Assembly (NCBI GenBank): GCA_028284155.1
Contig: JANQSF010000010.1
Coordinates: 62,001-126,000, forward strand
Length of the DNA: 64,000 nucleotides
Direction: 5' to 3'
DNA from: Phycisphaeraceae bacterium
GTDB taxonomy: Bacteria > Planctomycetota > Phycisphaerae > Phycisphaerales > Phycisphaeraceae
Both the position numbers and the translations under genes were made by a program. How positions within the stretch are numbered: the first letter of the stretch is position 1; the number at the start of each line of letters is the position of its first letter. Positions 1,446 to 28,581 of this stretch are shown here, piece after piece. The notes beneath the pieces are model-generated. The model did not search any database. It had not been told where the DNA came from and saw only the letters and a list, made by a program, of their open reading frames with translations.

Positions 1446-2759
1446 GTGACGGACACACCCATTGGCGTCGGGATGATCGGCTGCGGCACGGTCGGTGGTG
1501 GCGTGGCTCACCTGCTGACCGAGCAGGCCGAGCTGTACGCCCGCCGCGTCGGGCGACCGATCGAGCTGCGCCGGGTGCTCGTCCGCGACGTCAAACGCGG
1601 CGACCGCGATTCGGCCGTGCCGACTGATCTGCTGACGGACGACGCCGACGCATTCTTCGCCACCGATGACATGCCGATCGTCGTCGAGGTCGCCGGCGGC
1701 ACGGGTGTGATCGGGCAGCATGTCCGACGCGCGCTCGAGACCGGTCGACACGTCGTCACGGCCAACAAGAGCCTGCTCGCCGCGGACGGGGCCGACCTGT
1801 TCGCGCTCGCTCGGCAGAACAACGTGTCGATCGCCTTCGAGGCGTCGTGCGGCGGCGGCATCCCGATCGTCACCGCGCTCAAGTTCGGCCTGATGGCCAA
1901 CCGTATCGACGCGATGTACGGCATCCTCAACGGCACGTGTAACTACATCCTCACGCAGATGACGCAGCGCGACACGGCCTACAGCGACGCGCTTAGCGAG
2001 GCGCAGGAGCTTGGGTTTGCCGAGGCCGACCCGACGCTCGATGTGTCCGGGCGCGACGCAGCTGAGAAGTTGGCCATCCTCGCGTCGCTCGGCTTCGGCG
2101 TCCGCGCGCACGAGAGCCAAGTCTGGTCGGAAGGTATCGACACACTCGACCTCGCTGACATCCGGTTCGGCGCTGAACTCGGGTACGACATCAAACTGCT
2201 GGCTATCGGTGAGCGCCGCAACGAGGGCGTGTCGTTGCGTGTGCACCCGTGCTTCGTGCACAAGGACGAGCCGCTGGCGCAAGTGCACGGCAGCTTCAAC
2301 GCGTTGAGCGTGTTCGGTCACGCGGTGGGTCACACCATGTACTTTGGCCGTGGGGCAGGCCGTCTGCCGACGGCCAGCGCGGTGGTGAGCGACCTGCTGA
2401 ACGTCGCGTCCGGCTGGTACACGCAGGCGTTCTCGACATTGAACATTTGGCCGGACCGCACCGAGCCGGTCGCGCCGCTCGACCCGGCCGACCTGATCAG
2501 CCGGTTCTACCTGCGCATCCAGGCGCTCGACGTGCCCGGTGTGATGGCGAAGGTGAGCACGATCCTGGGCGACTTCGGCATCAGCCTGTCCGCGATTCTT
2601 CAGCACGAGTCGGCCGCCGGCGAGTTCGTTCCGCTGGTCGTCACGACCCACGCCGCGAAGCAGGGCGACGTGCTTGATGCACTAGACCGCCTCACCGCGC
2701 TCGACGAGATCGACTGTCGGCCGGTGTGCATCCGGATTGTTGACTTGCCGGCTGGTTAA
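1446..2759 (+). CDS. hom: Homoserine dehydrogenase
   Basis: NAD(P)-dependent reduction of aspartate semialdehyde to homoserine, the branch point to threonine and methionine. The 437-residue protein starts at GTG. Residues 8-20 hold the Rossmann loop (GMIGCGTVGGGVA). The family motifs TANKSLLA, SCGGGIPIV and EADPTLDVSGRDAAEKL follow, the last holding the catalytic Asp and Lys region. A C-terminal ACT domain (ALDVPGVMAKVSTILGDFGI) suggests allosteric control, typically by threonine. It stands alone, divergent from xseB. A REP pair begins 14 nt after the stop codon. Start choice: the Rossmann strand begins at residue 6, so no later start fits. Confidence 0.95.
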   Translation: MTDTPIGVGMIGCGTVGGGVAHLLTEQAELYARRVGRPIELRRVLVRDVKRGDRDSAVPTDLLTDDADAFFATDDMPIVVEVAGGTGVIGQHVRRALETGRHVVTANKSLLAADGADLFALARQNNVSIAFEASCGGGIPIVTALKFGLMANRIDAMYGILNGTCNYILTQMTQRDTAYSDALSEAQELGFAEADPTLDVSGRDAAEKLAILASLGFGVRAHESQVWSEGIDTLDLADIRFGAELGYDIKLLAIGERRNEGVSLRVHPCFVHKDEPLAQVHGSFNALSVFGHAVGHTMYFGRGAGRLPTASAVVSDLLNVASGWYTQAFSTLNIWPDRTEPVAPLDPADLISRFYLRIQALDVPGVMAKVSTILGDFGISLSAILQHESAAGEFVPLVVTTHAAKQGDVLDALDRLTALDEIDCRPVCIRIVDLPAG

Positions 2760-2772
2760 GGCCGTCTGAGCA

Positions 2773-2845
2773 GTAGGGGGCGCTTTAGCGCACCACGGTT
2801 CAAGGACGGTTGCCCGCAACATTGGTGCGCTAAAGCGCACCCTAC
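2773..2845. repeat. Paired inverted REP (BIME-like), GTAG foot
   Basis: Two 23-nt arms (2773-2795 and 2823-2845) match as an inverted repeat at 22 of 23 positions around a 27-nt spacer. Each outer end is GTAGGG. Each arm is itself a hairpin; the right arm has an 8-bp stem GGTGCGCT/AGCGCACC. A GTAG tetranucleotide at the foot of a small palindrome is the hallmark of REP elements mobilised by REP-associated tyrosine transposases. The right arm ends one base before the stop codon of the 2847-3215 gene. It may also act as a bidirectional terminator for the convergent hom. Confidence 0.8.
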
Positions 2846-2846
2846 G

Positions 2847-3215
2847 TCACACCGGGTCGTGCCCATACGTTTCAAGAAGGTCCGGGAGTTGTGAGACAAA
2901 CGCGCTGCGTGCCATCACCTGATCCGCGCCGGCGTTGCTTGCCGCTTCGAGCACCTTGGTCGCGACGTGAGAGCCGAAGGCGATCACGGTGGGTCGTGAG
3001 TCGTGCGCGACGGCCATGCGGATCTGGTCGAGCACGTCATCGCCGGCGTCGAGATCGATGAACACGGCCGTCACGCGCTCGCCCGCGTCGCCATGATCGA
3101 GCAAGGCTTGCAACTTCTCAACGTTGTGTGCCGACTTGCGTGGGACGCCAGCCGCGTCGGCCGTCGTGTCGATCCGACTGGCGAACATCATGTCTGCGGC
3201 GCGGTAGACAATCAT
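2847..3215 (-). CDS. Receiver-like hypothetical protein
   Basis: 122-residue cytoplasmic protein of unknown role. The fold looks like a CheY-type receiver: an alpha/beta pattern with VTAVFIDLDAGDD (possible phospho-acceptor region), PTVIAFGSHV and GADQVMARSAF, where receivers have D, T/S and K motifs. There is no output domain, and the acceptor and lysine positions are not convincingly conserved, so phosphorylation is doubtful. Its ATG (3215) overlaps the nadD stop as ATGA, so it is translationally coupled and last in the operon with the dehydrogenase, phosphorylase and nadD genes. A REP pair touches its stop codon. Confidence 0.65.
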   Translation of the reverse strand: MIVYRAADMMFASRIDTTADAAGVPRKSAHNVEKLQALLDHGDAGERVTAVFIDLDAGDDVLDQIRMAVAHDSRPTVIAFGSHVATKVLEAASNAGADQVMARSAFVSQLPDLLETYGHDPV

Positions 3216-3856
3216 GATCCGTTCTCCCGGTAGAGGCCGTGCTCTGCGATGTACGTTGCGACGGCGGGCGGCGTCAGTCCATGGACCGGCTCGCCAGCCG
3301 CGACGCGTCGGCGGACTTCGGTTGAGCTGACGTCGATCGCAGGGACATCGACGAGTCGGTTTGCCCACGTGTCTCGATCGAATCCGGCGGGCAGCGCGTC
3401 CAGCACGCCGTCGCGTGTCTCAGGCGGCCTGACCATCACGACCGGCTCAGCCAACTCCAGGATCTTTTCATGTTCACGCCACCGGTCGAACGCGCGTGAT
3501 TGGTCGCTGCCGATCAAGAGTCGAAGCGTGACGTCTTCCGGCAACCGTGCGCGGAGGGTAGCTAGTGTGTCCACGGTGTAGCTCGGTTCGCCGGCCGCGG
3601 CGCGGTCGTACTCGTCTGTAAGAATGATGACGTGCTCGATGCCCTGCAATGCTGATTGCAACATGGCAAAGCGTTGCTCGAACGACGTGTCCGTCTGGCC
3701 AACTTTGAAGGGAGAAACCGCCGCGGGGATGTAAGCGACCAGGTCCGCGCCGACGGCCCGCGCCGCCAGCGGTGGGAGTCGGACGTGCGCGACCGTCGGC
3801 GGGTCGAACGAACCGCCGAAGACGAGCACGGTGTTGGCGTCAGCAAGGTTGGTCAT
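3212..3856 (-). CDS. nadD: Nicotinate-nucleotide adenylyltransferase
   Basis: Transfers AMP to nicotinate mononucleotide in NAD synthesis. 214 residues, normal length. The N-terminal nucleotidyltransferase motif reads FGGSFDPPTVAH: the first His of HxGH is Thr, as in eukaryotic NMNATs (GSFNPIT..H), and the Gly is Ala, while the second His is kept. IPAAVSPFK and the C-terminal SSTEVRRRV (ISSTxIR motif) are clear. Both ends overlap their neighbours by 4 nt (ATGA): upstream with the nucleoside phosphorylase and downstream with the receiver-like gene, so it is tightly coupled in one operon. The start at 3856 was chosen for that overlap and because the beta-1 strand begins at residue 8. Confidence 0.88.
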   Translation of the reverse strand: MTNLADANTVLVFGGSFDPPTVAHVRLPPLAARAVGADLVAYIPAAVSPFKVGQTDTSFEQRFAMLQSALQGIEHVIILTDEYDRAAAGEPSYTVDTLATLRARLPEDVTLRLLIGSDQSRAFDRWREHEKILELAEPVVMVRPPETRDGVLDALPAGFDRDTWANRLVDVPAIDVSSTEVRRRVAAGEPVHGLTPPAVATYIAEHGLYRENGS

Positions 3857-4569
3857 CCGGCGAGCATGGCTTCGACGCGGTCGGCCAGCGCGTTGGCGGC
3901 CGACTTGGCGTGCTGTTGCAGTTTCATCATCAGCCGCATCATGGTCGGCCGCATCATGACGTACCGCGTGGCGGCGGCGATGTCGGGCGAGCCGTCGGGC
4001 TTGACCCACTTGACCGCGTCGGCCGGCAGGGCCATGTCGGCCGTGTCGCTGACGGCGCGGATCGGCGTGTAAGGAATGCCTCGATCAGACGCCGTTTGAG
4101 CGACGTGAAACGACTCCATATCCACCAGCGCCGCGCGGTGTTGTTCGTGCAGCTCAGCTTTGACCTGCGGCGAGTCAGCGATGTAGTCGAGCGTTAGCAG
4201 GCTGACGGCGTCGGCCTGTCCGTTCACGTCAAACTGTGTCGCTTCGCCCATCGCCGTCATAATCTGGCTAATCGGCGGCGCATCGCCCGCGTTCAGCGAA
4301 GGGTCGAGCCCGCCGGCAAAGCCCAAATGTACGACCTGCGCGACGTCGTGTTGCTCGCACGCCCACGCCAGCCCGGCGGTGACACGGTCTGCGCCGATAC
4401 CACATGTGACAGCAACGACTTCAAGTTCGCCGGCGCGGCCGCGCTGCGTGGTCAGCGACGCGCCGTTGAACGACACGCGGTCAGACGCGGGCGTCAGCGC
4501 CAACCGCTTGACGGTTGGCTTGATCTCGTCCGCGATCGCGGCCAGCAGGATGGTGACACGGTCCGACAA
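3853..4569 (-). CDS. Nucleoside phosphorylase-superfamily protein (MTA/SAH nucleosidase-like)
   Basis: 238-residue member of the PNP/UDP phosphorylase fold, which cleaves N-glycosidic bonds of nucleosides. Family landmarks: TCGIGADRVTAGL, VVHLGFAGGLDPSLNAGD (the G-x-AG-L-x-GD loop), ALVDMESFHVAQ (VDMES, ribose-binding Met-Glu) and IRAVSDTAD (catalytic Asp region). Candidates are MTA/SAH nucleosidase, futalosine hydrolase (MqnB) or the hopanoid-linked HpnG; neither menaquinone nor hopanoid genes are nearby to decide. A Met-rich C-terminal helix (MMRPTMMRLMMKLQ) is unusual. It starts 10 nt after the dehydrogenase gene and overlaps nadD by 4 nt. Confidence 0.75.
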   Translation of the reverse strand: MSDRVTILLAAIADEIKPTVKRLALTPASDRVSFNGASLTTQRGRAGELEVVAVTCGIGADRVTAGLAWACEQHDVAQVVHLGFAGGLDPSLNAGDAPPISQIMTAMGEATQFDVNGQADAVSLLTLDYIADSPQVKAELHEQHRAALVDMESFHVAQTASDRGIPYTPIRAVSDTADMALPADAVKWVKPDGSPDIAAATRYVMMRPTMMRLMMKLQQHAKSAANALADRVEAMLAG

Positions 4570-4579
4570 TGGCGTTCCC

Positions 4580-5551
4580 TCACCTGTTGACGACGTTGAT
4601 GGGGCTCCCGCCGATGAATGCGCTGAGATTGTCAGCCGCGGTCGCCAGAAGCCGCTTGCGAGCCGCCTGCGCGTACCAGGCGATGTGCGGCGTGACGATG
4701 CAATTGGGTGCGCCGATCAGTGGGTTGTCGCGCGCGGGCGGTTCCTGTTCCAGCACATCGACGGCCGCGCCGCCGATCACGCCGTCTTGCAACGCCGCCG
4801 CAAGGGCCGACTCATCGACCAACGGACCGCGACTCGTGTTGATCAGGAACGCCGTCGGCTTCATTTTGGCCAATCGCTCGGCATTGACCATGTGTTTGTT
4901 CTGTTCGGTCAGTGGGCAGTGCAGGCTGACGACGTCGCTTTCGGCGAACAGTTCGTCGAGCACAGCCGGTTCGATCTTCAGCCCGGCGCGGCGTTCGTCG
5001 TTCGGCCAATGCCGCGTATGGCCGACGAGTTTCATGCCCATTGCCGCTGCGATGTGCGCGAACGCCAGACCGATTCGGCCGAGTCCGACGATCCCGAGCG
5101 TCTTGCCCGCCAGTTCGACGATGGGCGACAGGGCGAAGCAGAAGTCGTCGCTGCTCGCCCACCTGCCCATGCGCACGGCCTCGTCGTGAATCGACACACG
5201 CCGGGCCAATTCGAGCATGAGCGCGGCCGTGTGCTGCGCGACGGAGTCGGTCCCGTATGTCGGCACATTGGTCACGGGGATACCGCGTTCTTTCGCGGCG
5301 GCGACATCGACGATGTTGTACCCCGTCGCCAGCACCCCGATGTACTTCAGGCCTGGTAGTTGGTCGAGCGTATGCGCCGACAGCGGCGTCTTGTTGGTCA
5401 GCACATAGGGCGCCGCCGACGCACGCTCGACGATCAGGTCGGCCGGCGTGCGGTCGTACACCGTCAGGTCGCCCAGCGACTCGAAGGGCGACCAGCCGAT
5501 GTCGCCGGGGTTGAGCGTAAAGCCGTCGAGCACAACGATGGGGTCGGGCAT
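4580..5551 (-). CDS. D-2-hydroxyacid dehydrogenase (hydroxypyruvate/glycerate type)
   Basis: NAD(P)-dependent oxidoreductase of 2-hydroxy acids; the closest type appears to be hydroxypyruvate reductase/glycerate dehydrogenase. 323 residues. The Rossmann loop is LGIVGLGRIGLAFAHIA. Catalytic residues are recognisable: Arg in INTSRGPLVDE, Glu near LEQEPPARDNPL and His in VTPHIAWYA. The start MPDPIVVLDGFTLNPG (5551) was chosen over an upstream in-frame start because the catalytic domain begins there. It is the first gene of the minus-strand operon dehydrogenase-phosphorylase-nadD-receiver-like. Substrate is inferred from overall resemblance only. Confidence 0.85.
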   Translation of the reverse strand: MPDPIVVLDGFTLNPGDIGWSPFESLGDLTVYDRTPADLIVERASAAPYVLTNKTPLSAHTLDQLPGLKYIGVLATGYNIVDVAAAKERGIPVTNVPTYGTDSVAQHTAALMLELARRVSIHDEAVRMGRWASSDDFCFALSPIVELAGKTLGIVGLGRIGLAFAHIAAAMGMKLVGHTRHWPNDERRAGLKIEPAVLDELFAESDVVSLHCPLTEQNKHMVNAERLAKMKPTAFLINTSRGPLVDESALAAALQDGVIGGAAVDVLEQEPPARDNPLIGAPNCIVTPHIAWYAQAARKRLLATAADNLSAFIGGSPINVVNR

Positions 5552-5681
5552 GGTTTGGCCGATCTTCACGGGCTGAAACGTCGAGACGCATGGTATCACT
5601 CGCAACGCGAGACGGCCTGACCCAACGCGCAGTCGCACCGGCTGATTGGTGGCCTGCCGTCCACGCGGTTATGATCCTTTG

Positions 5682-6299
5682 ATGCCTGTGTTCCTCGACA
5701 ACGAACCGCTCGACGTGACGATGGGCGACCTGGCTGGCGTGATCGAGGCCGCACGCCAGCGGTTGGCCGACCGCAAGCGCATTATTGTGGAGGTTTCACT
5801 CAATGGTGAGCCGTTGGTTGGCGAAGCGCTGGCCAATCATGCGAATGAGGCGGTCGGCGATCAGGAGGTTCGGCTGGTCTCAGCCGAGCCGGGCATGATC
5901 GCCAGCGAAACGTTGACACAACTGCTCCGGCTGCTCGAGGCCGGCGAGGCGACGATGCAGCAGACGGCCGACCACCTGCAACGCGACGATTATGGCGAGG
6001 CCATGAAGTTGATGACCGCGCTGTTTGAGACCTGGCAGAGCGCACCCGTCGGCGTGTACCAGTCGGCTGAACTGGTTGGCATCGCGCCCGACTCCTTGCG
6101 GGTCGGGGACAAGTCGCTGACCGACCTGGCCAACGAGTTGGTCATCCAATTGCGGACGGTGCGCGACCTGCTGGAGAATCGGGATACGCTGGGGTTGGCC
6201 GACGTGCTGGCCTACGAAATGCCCGATACGGCCAAAGCTTGGAAGGCCGTGATCGAGGAGTTGCTCGACCGGATCGAGGACGCGGCAGGGGGCGATTGA
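5682..6299 (+). CDS. Hypothetical protein
   Basis: 205 residues, no recognised domain, no signal peptide and no TM segment. The N-terminal third looks like an alpha/beta unit (KRIIVEVSLNGEPLVGEAL, then DQEVRLVSAEPG) and the rest is all-helical, acidic and Leu-rich, ending in a helix around AVIEELLDRIEDA. It is probably a cytoplasmic partner-binding protein. The start ATG at 5682 (MPVFLDNEPLDV) is preferred over an upstream in-frame GTG. It is divergent from the dehydrogenase operon and followed by a terminator-like hairpin, so it is probably a single-gene unit. Confidence 0.6.
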   Translation: MPVFLDNEPLDVTMGDLAGVIEAARQRLADRKRIIVEVSLNGEPLVGEALANHANEAVGDQEVRLVSAEPGMIASETLTQLLRLLEAGEATMQQTADHLQRDDYGEAMKLMTALFETWQSAPVGVYQSAELVGIAPDSLRVGDKSLTDLANELVIQLRTVRDLLENRDTLGLADVLAYEMPDTAKAWKAVIEELLDRIEDAAGGD

Positions 6300-6311
6300 C
6301 CTGGTCTCGAT

Positions 6312-6333
6312 CCGGGCCTTCAGAAAGGCCCGG
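6312..6333 (+). terminator. Intrinsic terminator-like hairpin
   Basis: A perfect 9-bp stem, CCGGGCCTT/AAGGCCCGG, with a 4-nt loop (CAGA), followed by only three T residues. It lies 12 nt after the stop of the 5682-6299 gene. Confidence 0.6.
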
Positions 6334-6372
6334 TTTCGGGCTCGCTCTTACAGTCTTGGCGTCGGCGGTCTT

Positions 6373-6428
6373 TTGACCTTCGACTCTTGACTTTCGACCT
6401 TCGACTCTTGACCTTCGACCTTCAACCG
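6373..6428 (+). repeat. Heptamer tandem array TYGACYY, eight units
   Basis: Eight consecutive 7-nt units from 6373: TTGACCT, TCGACTC, TTGACTT, TCGACCT, TCGACTC, TTGACCT, TCGACCT, TCAACCG. Seven fit TYGACYY exactly and the last is diverged. The array ends one base before the nuoC ATG and occupies the place of a ribosome binding site. It resembles in design, not in sequence, the cyanobacterial short tandemly repeated repetitive heptamers. Confidence 0.9.
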
Positions 6429-6429
6429 T

Positions 6430-7002
6430 ATGCCCACGCCCGCTCCCAACCTCGACCACCCGACGCTGCCACTGCTCAAAGCGCAGTTTCCCGAGACGCG
6501 ATTCTTGGCCAGCGAATTTCGCGGCCGAACGACTGTGGTCGTGCCGGCCGAAGCGCTGCACGCCGTCATGCGATACCTGCGGCATGACGCGGCGTGCGCA
6601 TACGACTTTCTTTCGGACGTCGTCGGTGTTGACTACCTGAACTACCCGGTCGACAAGTCAGCCTTGCCGGCAGGGCGGTTTGCGGTTGTTTACAACCTGG
6701 TCTGCACGCGGGACGAGCGTCGGCTTTACATCAAGGTCATGCTCGACCCGTCCTTGCCGACCGACCGCATTGAGGACGACCCTGCGCTTCACCTGCCGAC
6801 GGTCACCGACCTTTGGCCCGGCGCCGAGTGGACGGAGCGCGAGGTGTTCGACATGTTCGGCATCCGCTTTGACGGCCACCCCGATCTGCGGCGCATCCTG
6901 TTGTGGGAGACCTACCCGGCCCACCCGTTGCGCAAGGACTACCCGCTGCGCGGGCGTGGTGAGCGCGAGACGTACGAGGTGGTCGAGCGGGATAGCGCGT
7001 AA
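6430..7002 (+). CDS. nuoC: NADH-quinone oxidoreductase subunit C
   Basis: 30-kDa subunit of the peripheral arm of complex I. 190 residues, typical for a stand-alone NuoC. The signature block is present: EWTEREVFDMFGIRFDGHPD then LRRILLWETYPAHPLRKDYP. The first part holds the usual beta sheet (FAVVYNLVCTRDERRLYIKV). No other nuo gene is in the window, so it is orphaned from its complex. There is no Shine-Dalgarno sequence: the heptamer array runs up to one base before the ATG. The next in-frame start would remove conserved sequence, so the ATG at 6430 is kept. Confidence 0.92.
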   Translation: MPTPAPNLDHPTLPLLKAQFPETRFLASEFRGRTTVVVPAEALHAVMRYLRHDAACAYDFLSDVVGVDYLNYPVDKSALPAGRFAVVYNLVCTRDERRLYIKVMLDPSLPTDRIEDDPALHLPTVTDLWPGAEWTEREVFDMFGIRFDGHPDLRRILLWETYPAHPLRKDYPLRGRGERETYEVVERDSA

Positions 7003-7061
7003 CAGACGGCTCTTGACGCGCGCCATGGTTCACACACGTTCAAGCGAACTGACCTGGAGGT

Positions 7062-22910: not shown

Positions 22911-24662
22911 TTACTCAATCACGATGTCGAGTTTCGTCAGCTCCTTGTCACCGACCCGTAACGACTTGATCGTCTTCGGTACGGGGAATCGGAAGTAGAT
23001 GCAGAGCGTGTCGCCCGCCCCCATCTCATCGACCGCGATATCGCCGACCTTCTTGATCGGGTTCAGCGGGTCGATGTGGATCAACAGCGAGCCTTTCTTC
23101 CGCAGGATGACAAAGCCCAGCGGCTCGATCGGTTGATCGAAGTCGTCCATCAGCACGATGGGCTCGTTCCGCGTGCTTGACGACGCCGTGCCGAAGTAGA
23201 TCTGTGCGGATGGTGTGGACATTCTCACGCGGACGATGTCGTTCTGGCGGGGGAGGAAGAAGATGTTGACGACGCGATTATTCTTGCCCACGCCAGGCGA
23301 ATGCTTGACATCGTCTTTGCCGGAAATCAGGAAGTTCGTCCCACCCCGTTCGGTGTATTTAAGGTTCTGTGCCTCAACCTTGTTCAAGACACCGGGCAGC
23401 AGATTGTTGTGCGCGACTTCCAGGATTCGTTCGTCTTGGCCGTTGGGGTCGTCCTTAGCGTCCTCGAGAAAGCCGATGGCCTTGGTTCTCATGCTGTCCG
23501 GGTCGTCAATGGGCTGTTCCGTGAGCGAGAATCGGACGCCTCGGATGACGATGTACTTCGCCTCCTGTGACTTGGGGAATGCGAAAGTCCACGCGAAGGT
23601 CGCTTTGGTGTTGTGTTCCGCGACCGTGGTGTCGTCGACGATCGGTGAAAAGATGCGTTTGCCGGTGTTGGGGTTGATCTCATTGCTGATGCCGATGGGG
23701 GCGTGCAGGTGCGCTTCGGTCCCCTCGTGGGCCAGGAGCCTCACCTGTGCAGGTGGGAATCGCACCAGGCCGTCAAGGTCGAACGTTGGCACCATGTTGG
23801 CAACCGTCGTTTCGACCGCCATCAGCGTCAGGCCCTCTTCACTGAGCGCCTGTTGTAGAGCCTTCCCCTGTGCGGATTGCTGTTGGGGTTCGTGTGAGTC
23901 GGGATCAATCTGGTCCACCAATGCACTGTACTCAAGGGCGCCGATCGGGCTTGGGTTGCGCAGGTCGCTCGGGTCGATCGGTGTGTCATGCACGTAGACG
24001 GCCGTTACGGAAACACTCTCAGGAGTGAGTGTTGTCGAGATATTGACGTCCGGGCGAATTCGATGCACGATCGCCTCGCGTGCCAGGTCGGGGTGGAGCA
24101 TCGCCATGGGCGTGCCCGTGTTGAACGAGCCGCCGCCCAAGCCGGGTGCGTGTGACACGGTGCGGTACAGCGTGGCCGTCATGCGGTCAACGGGGATCCA
24201 CAAGCCCGTGCCGCCATCGACGATCTCCGCCCGCGCACCGGGGGTTCGGCTGACGCTCAATGGGTTGTACCCACCGATGCTCTGTCCTAGCGGCAGGAAG
24301 CCGAACGCGATGATTGTGATGCCCGATGCCACGATGCCTGTGACCAGCCCGCAAGCGCCGCCGGCGATCTGATTGACGATCTGCGCGAAGTCGAGGTTTT
24401 TGGGGACGAACTTGTCGAGCAGCAGCCGCGGCACGAGCATGAAGAGGATGAACGGCACGAGCAGGCCGAGTGTCCACGCCTGGTATGAGAGAAATGTCTT
24501 GGTGCCCAGGAACATGTATGCGATCGGTTCCCACAGGGCGAACGCGATCGCGCCGCCGATGATCACCGTGACCATGTGCAGGAACGCGCTGAACCACCCT
24601 TGCGTTCCCCACCAATAGACCATGCCGCCGATGAAGATGATGATGAGGATGTTGGTGAGCAT
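22911..24662 (-). CDS. CvpA-like membrane protein with large C-terminal domain
   Basis: 583 residues. Residues 1-130 hold four hydrophobic segments in the CvpA pattern (GWFSAFLHMVTVIIGGAIAF, LGLLVPFILFMLVPRLLLD, GGACGLVTGIVASGITIIAF). CvpA proteins are linked to colicin V export and envelope homeostasis. The remaining 450 residues are soluble and beta-rich, with repeated segments around TLTPESVSVTAVYVHDTPID and VIRGVRFSLTEQPI, with no recognised family, presumably outside the membrane. It lies between the pseudo-GspE and murD genes, suggesting an envelope role; function unknown. Confidence 0.7.
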   Translation of the reverse strand: MLTNILIIIFIGGMVYWWGTQGWFSAFLHMVTVIIGGAIAFALWEPIAYMFLGTKTFLSYQAWTLGLLVPFILFMLVPRLLLDKFVPKNLDFAQIVNQIAGGACGLVTGIVASGITIIAFGFLPLGQSIGGYNPLSVSRTPGARAEIVDGGTGLWIPVDRMTATLYRTVSHAPGLGGGSFNTGTPMAMLHPDLAREAIVHRIRPDVNISTTLTPESVSVTAVYVHDTPIDPSDLRNPSPIGALEYSALVDQIDPDSHEPQQQSAQGKALQQALSEEGLTLMAVETTVANMVPTFDLDGLVRFPPAQVRLLAHEGTEAHLHAPIGISNEINPNTGKRIFSPIVDDTTVAEHNTKATFAWTFAFPKSQEAKYIVIRGVRFSLTEQPIDDPDSMRTKAIGFLEDAKDDPNGQDERILEVAHNNLLPGVLNKVEAQNLKYTERGGTNFLISGKDDVKHSPGVGKNNRVVNIFFLPRQNDIVRVRMSTPSAQIYFGTASSSTRNEPIVLMDDFDQPIEPLGFVILRKKGSLLIHIDPLNPIKKVGDIAVDEMGAGDTLCIYFRFPVPKTIKSLRVGDKELTKLDIVIE

Positions 24663-24725: not shown

Positions 24726-26372
24726 TTACTTCTCTTTTGATAGTCCCCGCTGCACCTCGCTGATGCTGGTGACCCCCTCGACCACGCGCGACAGCGCGGC
24801 CTCCTGCAGCCAGAGTGTCTTGCGCTTCCGTAGATAGGCCCGCAGCGGGTCGAGTTGGCCGGCGGCGATGAGCTTGCGGCCCTGGTCGTCCAGCGCCATG
24901 ACCTCGAAGACCGCAAGTCGGCCGCGGAAGCCCATGCCCATGCAGGTGGGGCAGGTCTGCGGTTTGTCTTTGATCACGACCTGGCCGGACTCCTTGTAGA
25001 GCTGCTGAATCCGGTCGGCCGGCAGGTTCATCTTGCGCAACGCATCCGGGTCGGGCGAGAACGGCGCTCGGCATGCGATGCAGAGCTTGCGCACCAGGCG
25101 TTGCGCGATGACGGCCCGCAACGATTCGGACGCGGTCTTCGCGTCGCCGACGGCCTTGATCCACGCACGCAGGGCGGTAAACGTGTCGGCCATGGGCAGG
25201 CCGACGTACACGCGCGGGCCGTCCGTCGCGGCGTCGGCCAACAGTTGTGCCGTCGAGGCGTCGCCGACCCGGCTGAGCATGACGACGGTCGGGTCTTGGC
25301 GCAGCATGCGTGTCAACTGCGTGTTCGTCCATTTTGAGTCGCTGCCAGGCTCGATCAAAGTCTGCTCTGCCCCTTCGATCTCGAACGCGATCTCATCTTC
25401 CAGCGTCATGACGCTTTCGGTGTATGCGTCGTGGCGTTGCAACAGGCTGTAAAGCGTTGTCGTCATGCCGTGGTGCAGCGGGCAGGCGGCGATGACGATG
25501 CCGTGCGGCTCTTCAAGCGCGGGCGCGAGCGCGTTCTTTTGCGAATCGAGCAGGCCCAGGTCGTTGAACGCGGCGGTGAAGCGCTTGTCCGGGTCGATCC
25601 GGACGATCATCTGGGCCTCGCGTGTCGAGCCGACGGTCTGAACGCCGATCGTGTGTTTGCCCTGTTCGCCCGCGTCGATCTGTGTCTTGCCGAGTTGTCG
25701 CTTGCGCAGGTCGGAAACGTCGAGCCCGGCGTGCTTCTTGACGTACTCCATCAGCCCCATGGCCGATTGCGGGTCGATCTCCGGCTGCTCGTACCGGACG
25801 CCGTCGATCTGCACGGTCATCGTCGCCTTCTCGGACGAGAGGGTGACGTCGATCCGGTCAGCCCCGCGCGGCAGGGCGAAGTCCATGATCGTTTCGAATT
25901 GCTTGTGCGCCGCGGCCGCCGGGTCGCCGCTTGCCGGCACGTCCAGCCGTTGACCGTCCTTGGCCAGGAATGCCAGGCTGGCCTGTTTCTGCGCCGTCGC
26001 GTGGTCGCGTTCAGCCAGGAACTCCTTGAGCCCTTCGAGGGTGGGCTTGATCACTTTGTCCGGGGGAACCTGCGGGTTGCGATACATGATGTACGCGACG
26101 ACACCGCCCATCATCGTCGCCAGCATCAGCGGGTATCCGATCAGGAACGCCGGCACGAATAGCAGCAGGGCGAAGCCGCCCATCCCGCAGCCCATCTGCA
26201 CCGTGTTGAACATGCGGCGCTTGAGATAGAAGTAGGCCGCGTCCTTGTCGAGGTTGCTGACGACCCAGGCCCATCCGCCGATGGTGATCGCGGTCAGGAG
26301 CGGCTTGAAAATGCTGACGAGGACGGCCGACTGAGCCTCTGCGAGCGTAAACATGGACATCGCCGTTTCCAT
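24726..26372 (-). CDS. GspE/PilB-like membrane-anchored pseudo-ATPase
   Basis: 548 residues. Residues about 15-100 contain hydrophobic segments (LLLFVPAFLIGYPLMLATMM), unusual for this cytosolic family. The rest follows secretion ATPases closely (LEEPHGIVIA, TTTLYSLL, TLEDEIAFEIEGAEQ, RMLRQDPTVVML, IAQRLVRKLCIACR, TCPTCMGMGFRGRLAVFEVM with the tetracysteine zinc site). Catalytic motifs are lost: Walker A GPTGSGKT reads CPLHHGMT (residues 297-304, no Lys), the Walker B GE reads SR (VVMLSRVGD, 363-371) and the His box reads GLPMAD. Predicted not to hydrolyse ATP. It is co-directional with an intact pilT 137 nt upstream and with cvpA-like downstream, so it may regulate or anchor the pilus machinery. 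Confidence 0.85.
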   Translation of the reverse strand: METAMSMFTLAEAQSAVLVSIFKPLLTAITIGGWAWVVSNLDKDAAYFYLKRRMFNTVQMGCGMGGFALLLFVPAFLIGYPLMLATMMGGVVAYIMYRNPQVPPDKVIKPTLEGLKEFLAERDHATAQKQASLAFLAKDGQRLDVPASGDPAAAAHKQFETIMDFALPRGADRIDVTLSSEKATMTVQIDGVRYEQPEIDPQSAMGLMEYVKKHAGLDVSDLRKRQLGKTQIDAGEQGKHTIGVQTVGSTREAQMIVRIDPDKRFTAAFNDLGLLDSQKNALAPALEEPHGIVIAACPLHHGMTTTLYSLLQRHDAYTESVMTLEDEIAFEIEGAEQTLIEPGSDSKWTNTQLTRMLRQDPTVVMLSRVGDASTAQLLADAATDGPRVYVGLPMADTFTALRAWIKAVGDAKTASESLRAVIAQRLVRKLCIACRAPFSPDPDALRKMNLPADRIQQLYKESGQVVIKDKPQTCPTCMGMGFRGRLAVFEVMALDDQGRKLIAAGQLDPLRAYLRKRKTLWLQEAALSRVVEGVTSISEVQRGLSKEK

Positions 26373-26509: not shown

Positions 26510-27670
26510 TCAACCCGTGCCCGTGACGATGCCGCGCAACCGCATCCGCACCTCTTCAGGGCTGGCGGCGTGCGATTGCGCCTCTTTCGGGTGGACATAC
26601 TCTTTTTGCACGAGTTCGACGAGGCTGTCGGTGAAAGTCTGCATGCCCGCCTCGCGCTCGCCCTTGATGACCTCATCCAGTTCGTGTTCACGGCCTTCGA
26701 GGATGTACTTGCGCGTCGACGGGCTTTGCAGCAGCACTTCGACGGCCGGCACACGCTGGATGTCTTCACGGATGGTCGGCAGGAGTTTCTGGTAGATAAA
26801 CGCCTGCGTCTGGTACGCGAGCATGTTGCGGATCGCCACACGTTCGTCAGCCGGGAACAGATCGTAGATTCGGCCGAACGCCTGCGACGCGCTGGAGGCG
26901 TGGATCGTCCCGAACACGAGGTGACCGGTCTCAGCCGCCTGCAACGCCGCCTCGAACGTCTCCTTGTCGCGCATCTCGCCGATCAGCACGACGTCCGGGT
27001 TCTCACGCACGAGCGCCCGCAGGCCTTCGGAAAAGTTCGGCACGTCGATGCCGACCTCGCGCTGGTTGATGATCGCCTTGGAGTCCTGAAAGAGATACTC
27101 GATCGGGTCTTCGATCGTGACGATGTGGCACGCACGTTGTTGGTTGATGTAGTCGAGCATCGACGCGATCGTCGTGCTCTTGCCCGAGCCGGTGACGCCG
27201 GCCAACAGGACCAGCCCCTGGTGGTGTTTGGAGACCTGCTCCATGACGGGCGGCAGACGCAGGTCCTCGAAGTTCAGGATCGTGTTGTTGACCCGCCGGG
27301 CGGCGATGGCGCTTCGGCCGCGGGTCCGAAACACGTTGATACGGAATCGGTGTGTGCTGCCGTCGCCCAGTTGGAAGTCTTCGCCGATGTCGATCGACCC
27401 GCGCTCCGCGTAATGCGCCCACCGCCCCGGGCTGAGCGACTCGCGGATCCACTGCTCGAACTCAGTTGCGGACAAGTCGTCGACCTTGAGTGATTGCAGC
27501 GCGCCGCGCACGCGCAGGCGCGGCGCTTGACCGCCGCGCAGCAGCAGGTCGGACGCTTCGAACTTCACCGCCGCCTCGAAGAACCGACGCAGTGGCGTGT
27601 CGGCCATCGTCTTACGCTCGGCGGTGGGGTCGTCGGGGATGTTGTCAGCCAGTGTGTCGACCTCGGGCAT
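26510..27670 (-). CDS. pilT: PilT-type pilus retraction ATPase
   Basis: 386-residue hexameric ATPase that disassembles type IV pili for twitching or surface sensing. Intact motifs: Walker A AGVTGSGKSTTIASML, Asp box TIEDPIEYLF, Walker B VVLIGEMRDKETFEAAL and His box GTIHASSASQ. C-terminal AGMQTFTDSLVELV matches PilT (AIRNLIRE is replaced by AIRNMLAYQTQAFIYQKLLP). The start MPEVDTLADN (27670) is taken; an in-frame start 36 nt upstream would overlap hisF. It is between hisF and the pseudo-GspE gene, on the same strand. Confidence 0.9.
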   Translation of the reverse strand: MPEVDTLADNIPDDPTAERKTMADTPLRRFFEAAVKFEASDLLLRGGQAPRLRVRGALQSLKVDDLSATEFEQWIRESLSPGRWAHYAERGSIDIGEDFQLGDGSTHRFRINVFRTRGRSAIAARRVNNTILNFEDLRLPPVMEQVSKHHQGLVLLAGVTGSGKSTTIASMLDYINQQRACHIVTIEDPIEYLFQDSKAIINQREVGIDVPNFSEGLRALVRENPDVVLIGEMRDKETFEAALQAAETGHLVFGTIHASSASQAFGRIYDLFPADERVAIRNMLAYQTQAFIYQKLLPTIREDIQRVPAVEVLLQSPSTRKYILEGREHELDEVIKGEREAGMQTFTDSLVELVQKEYVHPKEAQSHAASPEEVRMRLRGIVTGTG

Positions 27671-27702
27671 GATGTCGTCCCCTTTGGGGTAATGCGGATT
27701 GC

Positions 27703-28581
27703 TCAACGCTTGGCCCGAACGGGCACGCCTTGCTCAGCCAGGTACTGCTTAGTCGCTTCGATCGAGTATTCACCGTAGTGGAAGATGCTCGCCGCCAACG
27801 CCGCGTCAGCCCCCGCGTCCACGATCACGTCGCGCATGTGCGCCGGCGAGCCGCACCCGCCCGACGCAACCACCGGCACGTCAACCGCGGCTGACACCGC
27901 GCGCGTCATCTGGACGTCGTATCCGTCTTTCGTCCCGTCAGCATCCATGCTTGTGAGCACGATCTCACCCGCGCCCAGTTCAACGACGTGCTTCGCCCAC
28001 GCCACGGCCTCCAGCCCCGTCGGTGTTCGGCCGCCGTGCGTGTGGACTTCGAAGACGTAGTCGGCGTCGTGATGCTCAAGGTCGTCGGGCGTGGCGCGCG
28101 GCCTGCCGCCCGGCGTTCCTCCTGTCCCCTGTCCCCTGTCCCCTGTCTCCTGTCGCCTTGCTTCATGCTCCGCACGCGGCACCCGCTTCGGGTCGATGTT
28201 GACGACCGTCGCACACCGCCCGAACCGCCGTGCCGTTTGTGTCACGATCTCGGGCGTCACGACAGCGGCCGTGTTGATGCTCACCTTCTCGGCCCCGGCC
28301 TGCACCAGCCGCGTCACGTCATCGATCGTGCGGATGCCGCCGCCGACGGTAAACGGCATGAAGCACTGCTCAGCCACCTGTCGCACGACGTCGAAAATGA
28401 TCGACCGGTCCTCGTGGCTTGCGGTGATGTCCAGAAACACCAACTCGTCGGCGCCGGCCTCGTCGTACTGCCGGGCGATCTCGACCGGGTCGCCCGCGTC
28501 GCGCAGGTTGACGAAATTGACGCCCTTGACCACGCGGCCGGCTTTCACGTCGAGGCACGGGATGATGCGGTGGGTCAGCAA
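27703..28581 (-). CDS. hisF: Imidazole glycerol phosphate synthase cyclase subunit with repeat-derived insert
   Basis: TIM-barrel cyclase that uses ammonia from HisH to make imidazole glycerol phosphate in histidine synthesis. 292 residues against about 255. Catalytic Asp11 ([15 protein letters not shown]) and Asp130 (VVNIDPKR) are present, as are [12 protein letters not shown] and [20 protein letters not shown]. Between beta-5 and the [14 protein letters not shown] loop, residues about 136-174 are an insert absent from other HisF. Residues 143-154 of it ([12 protein letters not shown]) are the translation of a CCTGTCC heptamer array at 28121-28155. No other his gene is in the window; pilT follows. 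Confidence 0.93.
28121..28155. repeat. Heptamer array CCTGTCN inside hisF
   Basis: Five consecutive units: CCTGTCC, CCTGTCC, CCTGTCC, CCTGTCT, CCTGTCG. The reading frame stays open through it, giving the [10 protein letters not shown] segment of HisF. Confidence 0.92.

Follow-up and report, generated by a model that had tools for sequence, protein, structure and literature searches.

An ATPase-dead, membrane-anchored GspE/PilB-type protein adjoining an intact pilT gene in Phycisphaerae

In type IV secretion, a DotB/VirB11-type ring is stacked on a membrane-linked ATPase ring of the VirB4/DotO type, and both rings are ATPases. TadZ and CpaE are atypical ParA-like proteins of Tad pili, in which the ATPase fold is reused as a positioning factor for the pilus motor. 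The GspE/PilB ATPases such as EpsE, PilB, and PilF have the N2D and C-terminal ATPase fold, a tetracysteine, an Asp-box Glu, and an LR[RQ]DP element, all in common with the protein described here (TM-GspE). Unlike them, TM-GspE lacks the Walker A Lys, the Walker B Glu, the His-box His, and the conserved gamma-phosphate arginines; it has three transmembrane helices where they have the N1 domain. According to a review (PMC11656802), the catalytic Glu is present in every PilB-type extension ATPase. PilU, an accessory motor of type IV pili that depends on PilT, is described as a retraction ATPase (PMC13142100). It resembles TM-GspE as a second family ATPase working with PilT, a partnership which for TM-GspE is a proposal; however, PilU is PilT-type, whereas TM-GspE is PilB-type, membrane-anchored, and dead. 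The two-ring arrangement of type IV secretion, with a PilT/VirB11-family hexamer docked on another ring at the membrane, is the architecture proposed below, except that one of the rings would be dead. TadZ and CpaE belong to a different fold family from TM-GspE and are not anchored by helices of their own.

The window, i.e. the whole stretch of DNA that was analysed, comprises 64,000 nt of a Phycisphaeraceae bacterium genome (GCA_028284155.1, contig JANQSF010000010.1, positions 62,001-126,000, forward strand). In what follows, the class is Phycisphaerae and the phylum is Planctomycetota, according to the lineage of the source genome. The features of the locus are listed in Table 1.

Table 1. 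Features of the TM-GspE locus, with positions counted from the first nucleotide of the window
Feature	Position	Strand	Basis
TM-GspE, membrane-anchored GspE/PilB-type pseudo-ATPase, 548 aa	24726..26372	-	ORF, profile, alignment, fold
Three predicted transmembrane helices, residues 22-47, 52-72, and 76-101 (codons 22-101), kept in dead and active homologues	26070..26309	-	model
Degenerate Walker A, ACPLHHGMT, codons 296-304, Lys position = M303	25461..25487	-	alignment
Degenerate Walker B, VVMLSR, codons 363-368, GE replaced by SR	25269..25286	-	alignment
Former His box, PRVYVGLPMADTF, codons 386-398, catalytic His gone	25179..25217	-	alignment
Zinc-type tetracysteine, C431, C434, C474, and C477, retained	24942..25082	-	alignment
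Operon PilT-type ATPase, TIGR01420, 390.1 bits, all catalytic motifs intact	26510..27706	-	profile and alignment
CvpA-like membrane protein, 583 aa, four predicted transmembrane helices (residues 2-120) and a beta-rich domain	22911..24662	-	profile, model
hisF-type gene overlapping the pilT start	27703..28581	-	assigned from sequence

The frame of TM-GspE is open across all 548 codons. Residues 158-542 matched the Pfam family T2SSE (PF00437) with 154 bits (cut-off 24.9, E 5.6e-45), structures of EpsE and PilB were matched in sequence with E down to 3e-40, and the alignment to EpsE is unbroken over residues 147-544. Profile and fold (N2D and CTD) together place the protein in the type II/IV secretion ATPase superfamily. 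It scored 160-177 bits against the GspE and PilB profiles (TIGR02533 and TIGR02538), far under the equivalog cut-offs (177 vs 630). Against the PilT-type profile TIGR01420 it reached 44.8 bits where the subfamily cut-off is 319.1, and so it is not a PilT-type retraction ATPase.

Motif positions were read from the alignment to Vibrio cholerae EpsE, and they bear out an earlier note on this DNA, which had claimed that the Walker A Lys, the Walker B Glu, and the His box were lost. GPTGSGKST of the EpsE Walker A corresponds to CPLHHGMTT, which departs from the pattern GxxxxGK[ST]; VMVGEIRD of Walker B corresponds to VMLSRVGD, in which the catalytic Glu is missing; and HTNT of the His box corresponds to PMADT, with P393 at the position of the His. 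The N2D arginines R210 and R225 of EpsE correspond to G243 and R258, and both positions are variable in the dead homologues and 100% Arg in the active ones. The zinc tetracysteine, the Asp-box region with its Glu (TLEDEIAFEIEG), and the C-terminal domain within the T2SSE fold are all retained, as the same note had held. G302, R428, C431, C474, E490, G533, E539, and D315, which are non-catalytic positions, are fixed in dead and active groups alike. In three loci of one genus (L067, L084, and L085) the dead protein has lost its zinc cysteines as well, with A, S, and S at positions 431, 434, and 477.

A model of TM-GspE was obtained with AlphaFold2 from 52 homologues (mean pLDDT 92.6). The three helices stand before the N2D and ATPase domains and are predicted with high confidence; they take the place of the N1 domain, by which a soluble GspE/PilB protein would dock to GspL/PilM. 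A fold search with the model retrieved PilB and GspE at Z 34-39 over 364-382 residues, the best solved structures being PilB, PilF, and GspE with TMt up to 0.88. Nine other GspE/PilB-type paralogues are encoded in the same genome, all with an intact GxxxxGK[ST] and all without such membrane segments. Therefore, the motif loss is not a genome-wide sequence artefact. A sequencing or frame error was ruled out by the same losses in 97 homologues of other genomes. Judged from its sequence, TM-GspE is an ATPase-dead, membrane-anchored protein of the GspE/PilB type adjoining an intact pilT, and the loss of its motifs is real.

A search across 61 genomes from the family and order of the source genome yielded full-length homologues at 30-49% identity, which are clearly set apart from other GspE-type proteins (E < 1e-69 vs about 1e-44); the Walker A Lys was missing in all 53 sequences of an alignment. 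The 52-row alignment was too diverse, and the N-terminal alignment A4 was usable. A class-wide search recovered a homologue in 144 of 148 genomes, a count that includes one copy cut by a contig end (G280), and found paralogues only, with no TM-GspE homologue, in G246, G252, G283, and G306. A single-protein scan of named genomes gave no match. Among 97 class homologues, not one retains the Walker A Lys, and most have other residues in place of the Walker B GE and the His-box His. The Lys position is occupied by L, R, V, T, M, I, Q, S, A, or G without any pattern. The residues for hydrolysis have been lost in the class, and very probably productive nucleotide binding as well.

The architecture, membrane helices included, is also found in other classes of the phylum. 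At the same locus there, 27 homologues keep the Lys, GE, His, and N2D arginines without exception (27/27), and a second dead group of 23 sequences has lost all of these. The earlier note took homologues with an unbroken Walker A at this locus as evidence against its reading; they thus exist outside the class, and no exception is seen among the 97 sequences within it. The same note regarded the N-terminal segments as gained: their presence is supported by the three predicted helices, but a gain together with the motif loss is contradicted by the fully active homologues that have them. Since the active, membrane-anchored form occupies the same locus in other classes, the anchor predates the loss of the motifs. 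Three intermediates (L161, L181, and L165b) keep the Lys and have lost other motifs, and L188 stands apart as a dead copy close to active ones. Locus L165 (G463:C37:110064-121749) carries two degenerate GspE copies in tandem, at 3869-5689 and 5721-7037 (+), and in the second of these the membrane helices are missing, GE and His are lost, and the Walker A Lys remains.

In a tree rooted on the own-genome paralogues, the active forms are basal and the two dead groups are each supported at 100/100. All dead rows tested group together in a 53-row tree (support 93/95), with which a single origin of the loss for the two main dead groups may be compatible; a 98-row quick tree needs at least four changes of the Walker A state and at least three of the combined Lys and Glu state. 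Long-branch attraction is possible. The root, together with the fact that members of the superfamily generally have the motifs, points to a direction from active to dead. Values of dN/dS (Nei-Gojobori) were 0.05-0.30 in close pairs of dead homologues from other genomes, where dS could be estimated; in some other pairs dS was saturated. They were mostly somewhat higher than those of the neighbouring pilT, with which they ran parallel, and lower than those of the CvpA-like gene. By these measures the dead protein is under purifying selection, which maintains its fold, zinc region, and anchor, and the relaxed decay that the earlier note had proposed to look for is not seen.

The missing catalytic motifs might be taken as the mark of a pseudogene, or of a copy that is decaying in one lineage. 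This explanation deserves almost no credence in view of class-wide intact frames, dN/dS well below 1, fixed scaffold residues, and kept synteny; it is regarded as refuted by class-wide conservation under purifying selection, and the earlier claim that the gene is not a simple pseudogene holds. Rather than relaxed decay, the locus shows the conversion of a conserved part from active to dead. Because the same dead protein has been kept throughout the class, TM-GspE very probably serves a structural or regulatory purpose and is not a broken gene. At the level of sequence, it is nearly certain that TM-GspE represents a phylum-wide family that is catalytically dead in the class and whose scaffold and anchor have been selected.

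The gene order (hisF)-pilT-TM-GspE-CvpA-like is kept across the phylum. The pilT gene lies directly upstream of TM-GspE in 16 of 17 loci of the own family and 55 of 67 other class loci (71/84 in all), and in 22 of 23 loci of the second dead group, where the median gap is 2 bp. Loci with an active copy have it there in only 11 of 27, a contrast between dead and active that rests on few independent lineages. The neighbouring pilT was called intact by the earlier note, rightly so, and the catalytic motifs are intact in all 112 aligned PilT sequences covering the site, including five own-genome paralogues. The operon PilT has RKYILEGRE (residues about 323-345) where a same-genome PilT paralogue has AIRNLIRE, and HASS after the catalytic His; because of these features, a distinct PilT subfamily is suggested. 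In three genomes with an active copy and no local pilT (G110, G190, and G194), the closest PilT relative lies about 10 kb off. Six genomes with a dead copy and no local pilT (G012, G032, G201, G208, G227, and G237) have no clear operon-type PilT elsewhere, the best matches being at 39-43% identity. Therefore, the dependence of the dead protein on this PilT is not strict.

The CvpA-like gene follows TM-GspE in 83 of 84 class loci and, judged from membrane-segment content, is adjacent in most loci elsewhere. Its product in the window has a beta-rich extension of more than 400 residues, and relatives in other classes are mostly about 200-250 aa long. A fold search with the model of this protein matched no solved structure at E <= 0.001. 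In the nine genomes checked, no PilC/GspF platform gene (T2SSF) is present at the operon, and all nine have such genes elsewhere.

The likeliest scheme is that TM-GspE still forms all or part of a PilB-type ring lying on the inner membrane, where it would be held by its own helices and by the CvpA-like protein. Such a ring or adaptor, unable to hydrolyse ATP, would be a fixed docking and assembly platform for a live PilT-type hexamer: PilT would supply the work, and the dead protein would give position, specificity, and coupling to its CvpA-like membrane partner. Ring formation, the docking of PilT, an interaction with the CvpA-like protein, and the side of the membrane on which the extra domain lies are all conjectural here. 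On the sequence data, the docking role taken by itself has an even chance at best, and the dead family and the PilT platform taken jointly fall just short of even. More tentative, and somewhat doubtful, is the full evolutionary scheme, namely that in the whole class, and separately in other lineages of the phylum, a self-anchored PilB-type motor became a dead ring in the membrane, by which a live PilT-type ring is positioned and coupled to the CvpA-like membrane protein, giving a two-ring machine with one motor and one fixed base. The operon of locus L118 (G291:C11:397741-407375) encodes in order pilT, a soluble active GspE (2116-3864 (+)) whose N-terminus reads by eye as FHA-like, the dead TM-GspE, and the CvpA-like protein, and it fits a sharing of tasks between a working motor and an inactive anchor.

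The true partner may instead be the CvpA-like protein, with TM-GspE as a membrane platform independent of PilT and the pilT link mainly inherited gene order. That the CvpA-like gene is more constant than pilT at class loci speaks for this, as does a whole family (f63) which has no local pilT and retains TM-GspE and the CvpA-like gene. Nevertheless, pilT adjacency is kept across the phylum, the gap in one dead group is very short, and pilT is never degenerate, so this explanation seems unlikely, though it carries some weight. The dead protein could also co-assemble with active GspE/PilB, or with PilT, as a regulatory subunit that tunes or seeds a mixed hexamer. Nine intact paralogues are available in the own genome, L118 encodes an active GspE directly before the dead one, and the fold and many non-catalytic residues of TM-GspE are conserved. 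However, in most cases such a partner would be encoded elsewhere, the ATPase encoded alongside is of the PilT type with a distant sequence, and an anchored subunit among soluble ones is geometrically awkward. Mixed hexamers are less likely also because TM-GspE is PilB/GspE-type and its neighbour clearly a separate PilT-type, and because the CvpA-like gene is the more constant partner; overall we consider them distinctly unlikely. Of the functions suggested in the earlier note, that of a receptor for PilT, or docking, suits the synteny better than the seeding of mixed hexamers. A sensor, in which the degenerate pocket binds a nucleotide or another small ligand without hydrolysing it and acts as a gate on PilT or secretion, would agree with the invariant P-loop Gly302 and the nearly invariant T304/T305 and E325. 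Yet the patternless Lys position and the variable gamma-phosphate arginine positions are unlike a selected nucleotide pocket, which makes a sensor improbable.

The fold family is known, and in the open-licence literature no description was found of a dead or membrane GspE/PilB, nor of PilT with CvpA; as far as that literature goes, the class-wide, membrane-anchored dead branch appears to be new. With both an active and a dead version of a single membrane-anchored protein at one locus in one phylum, a natural comparison is available for the roles of such rings beyond burning ATP. The finding also marks a conserved pilT / TM-GspE / CvpA-like operon in planctomycetes, including strain ZRK32, which is in culture and in whose description the main text makes no mention of pili (PMC10945688).

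The hisF-type gene is found in the same upstream place in 43 loci across the phylum. It is odd company for a pilus motor and perhaps a mere positional neighbour.
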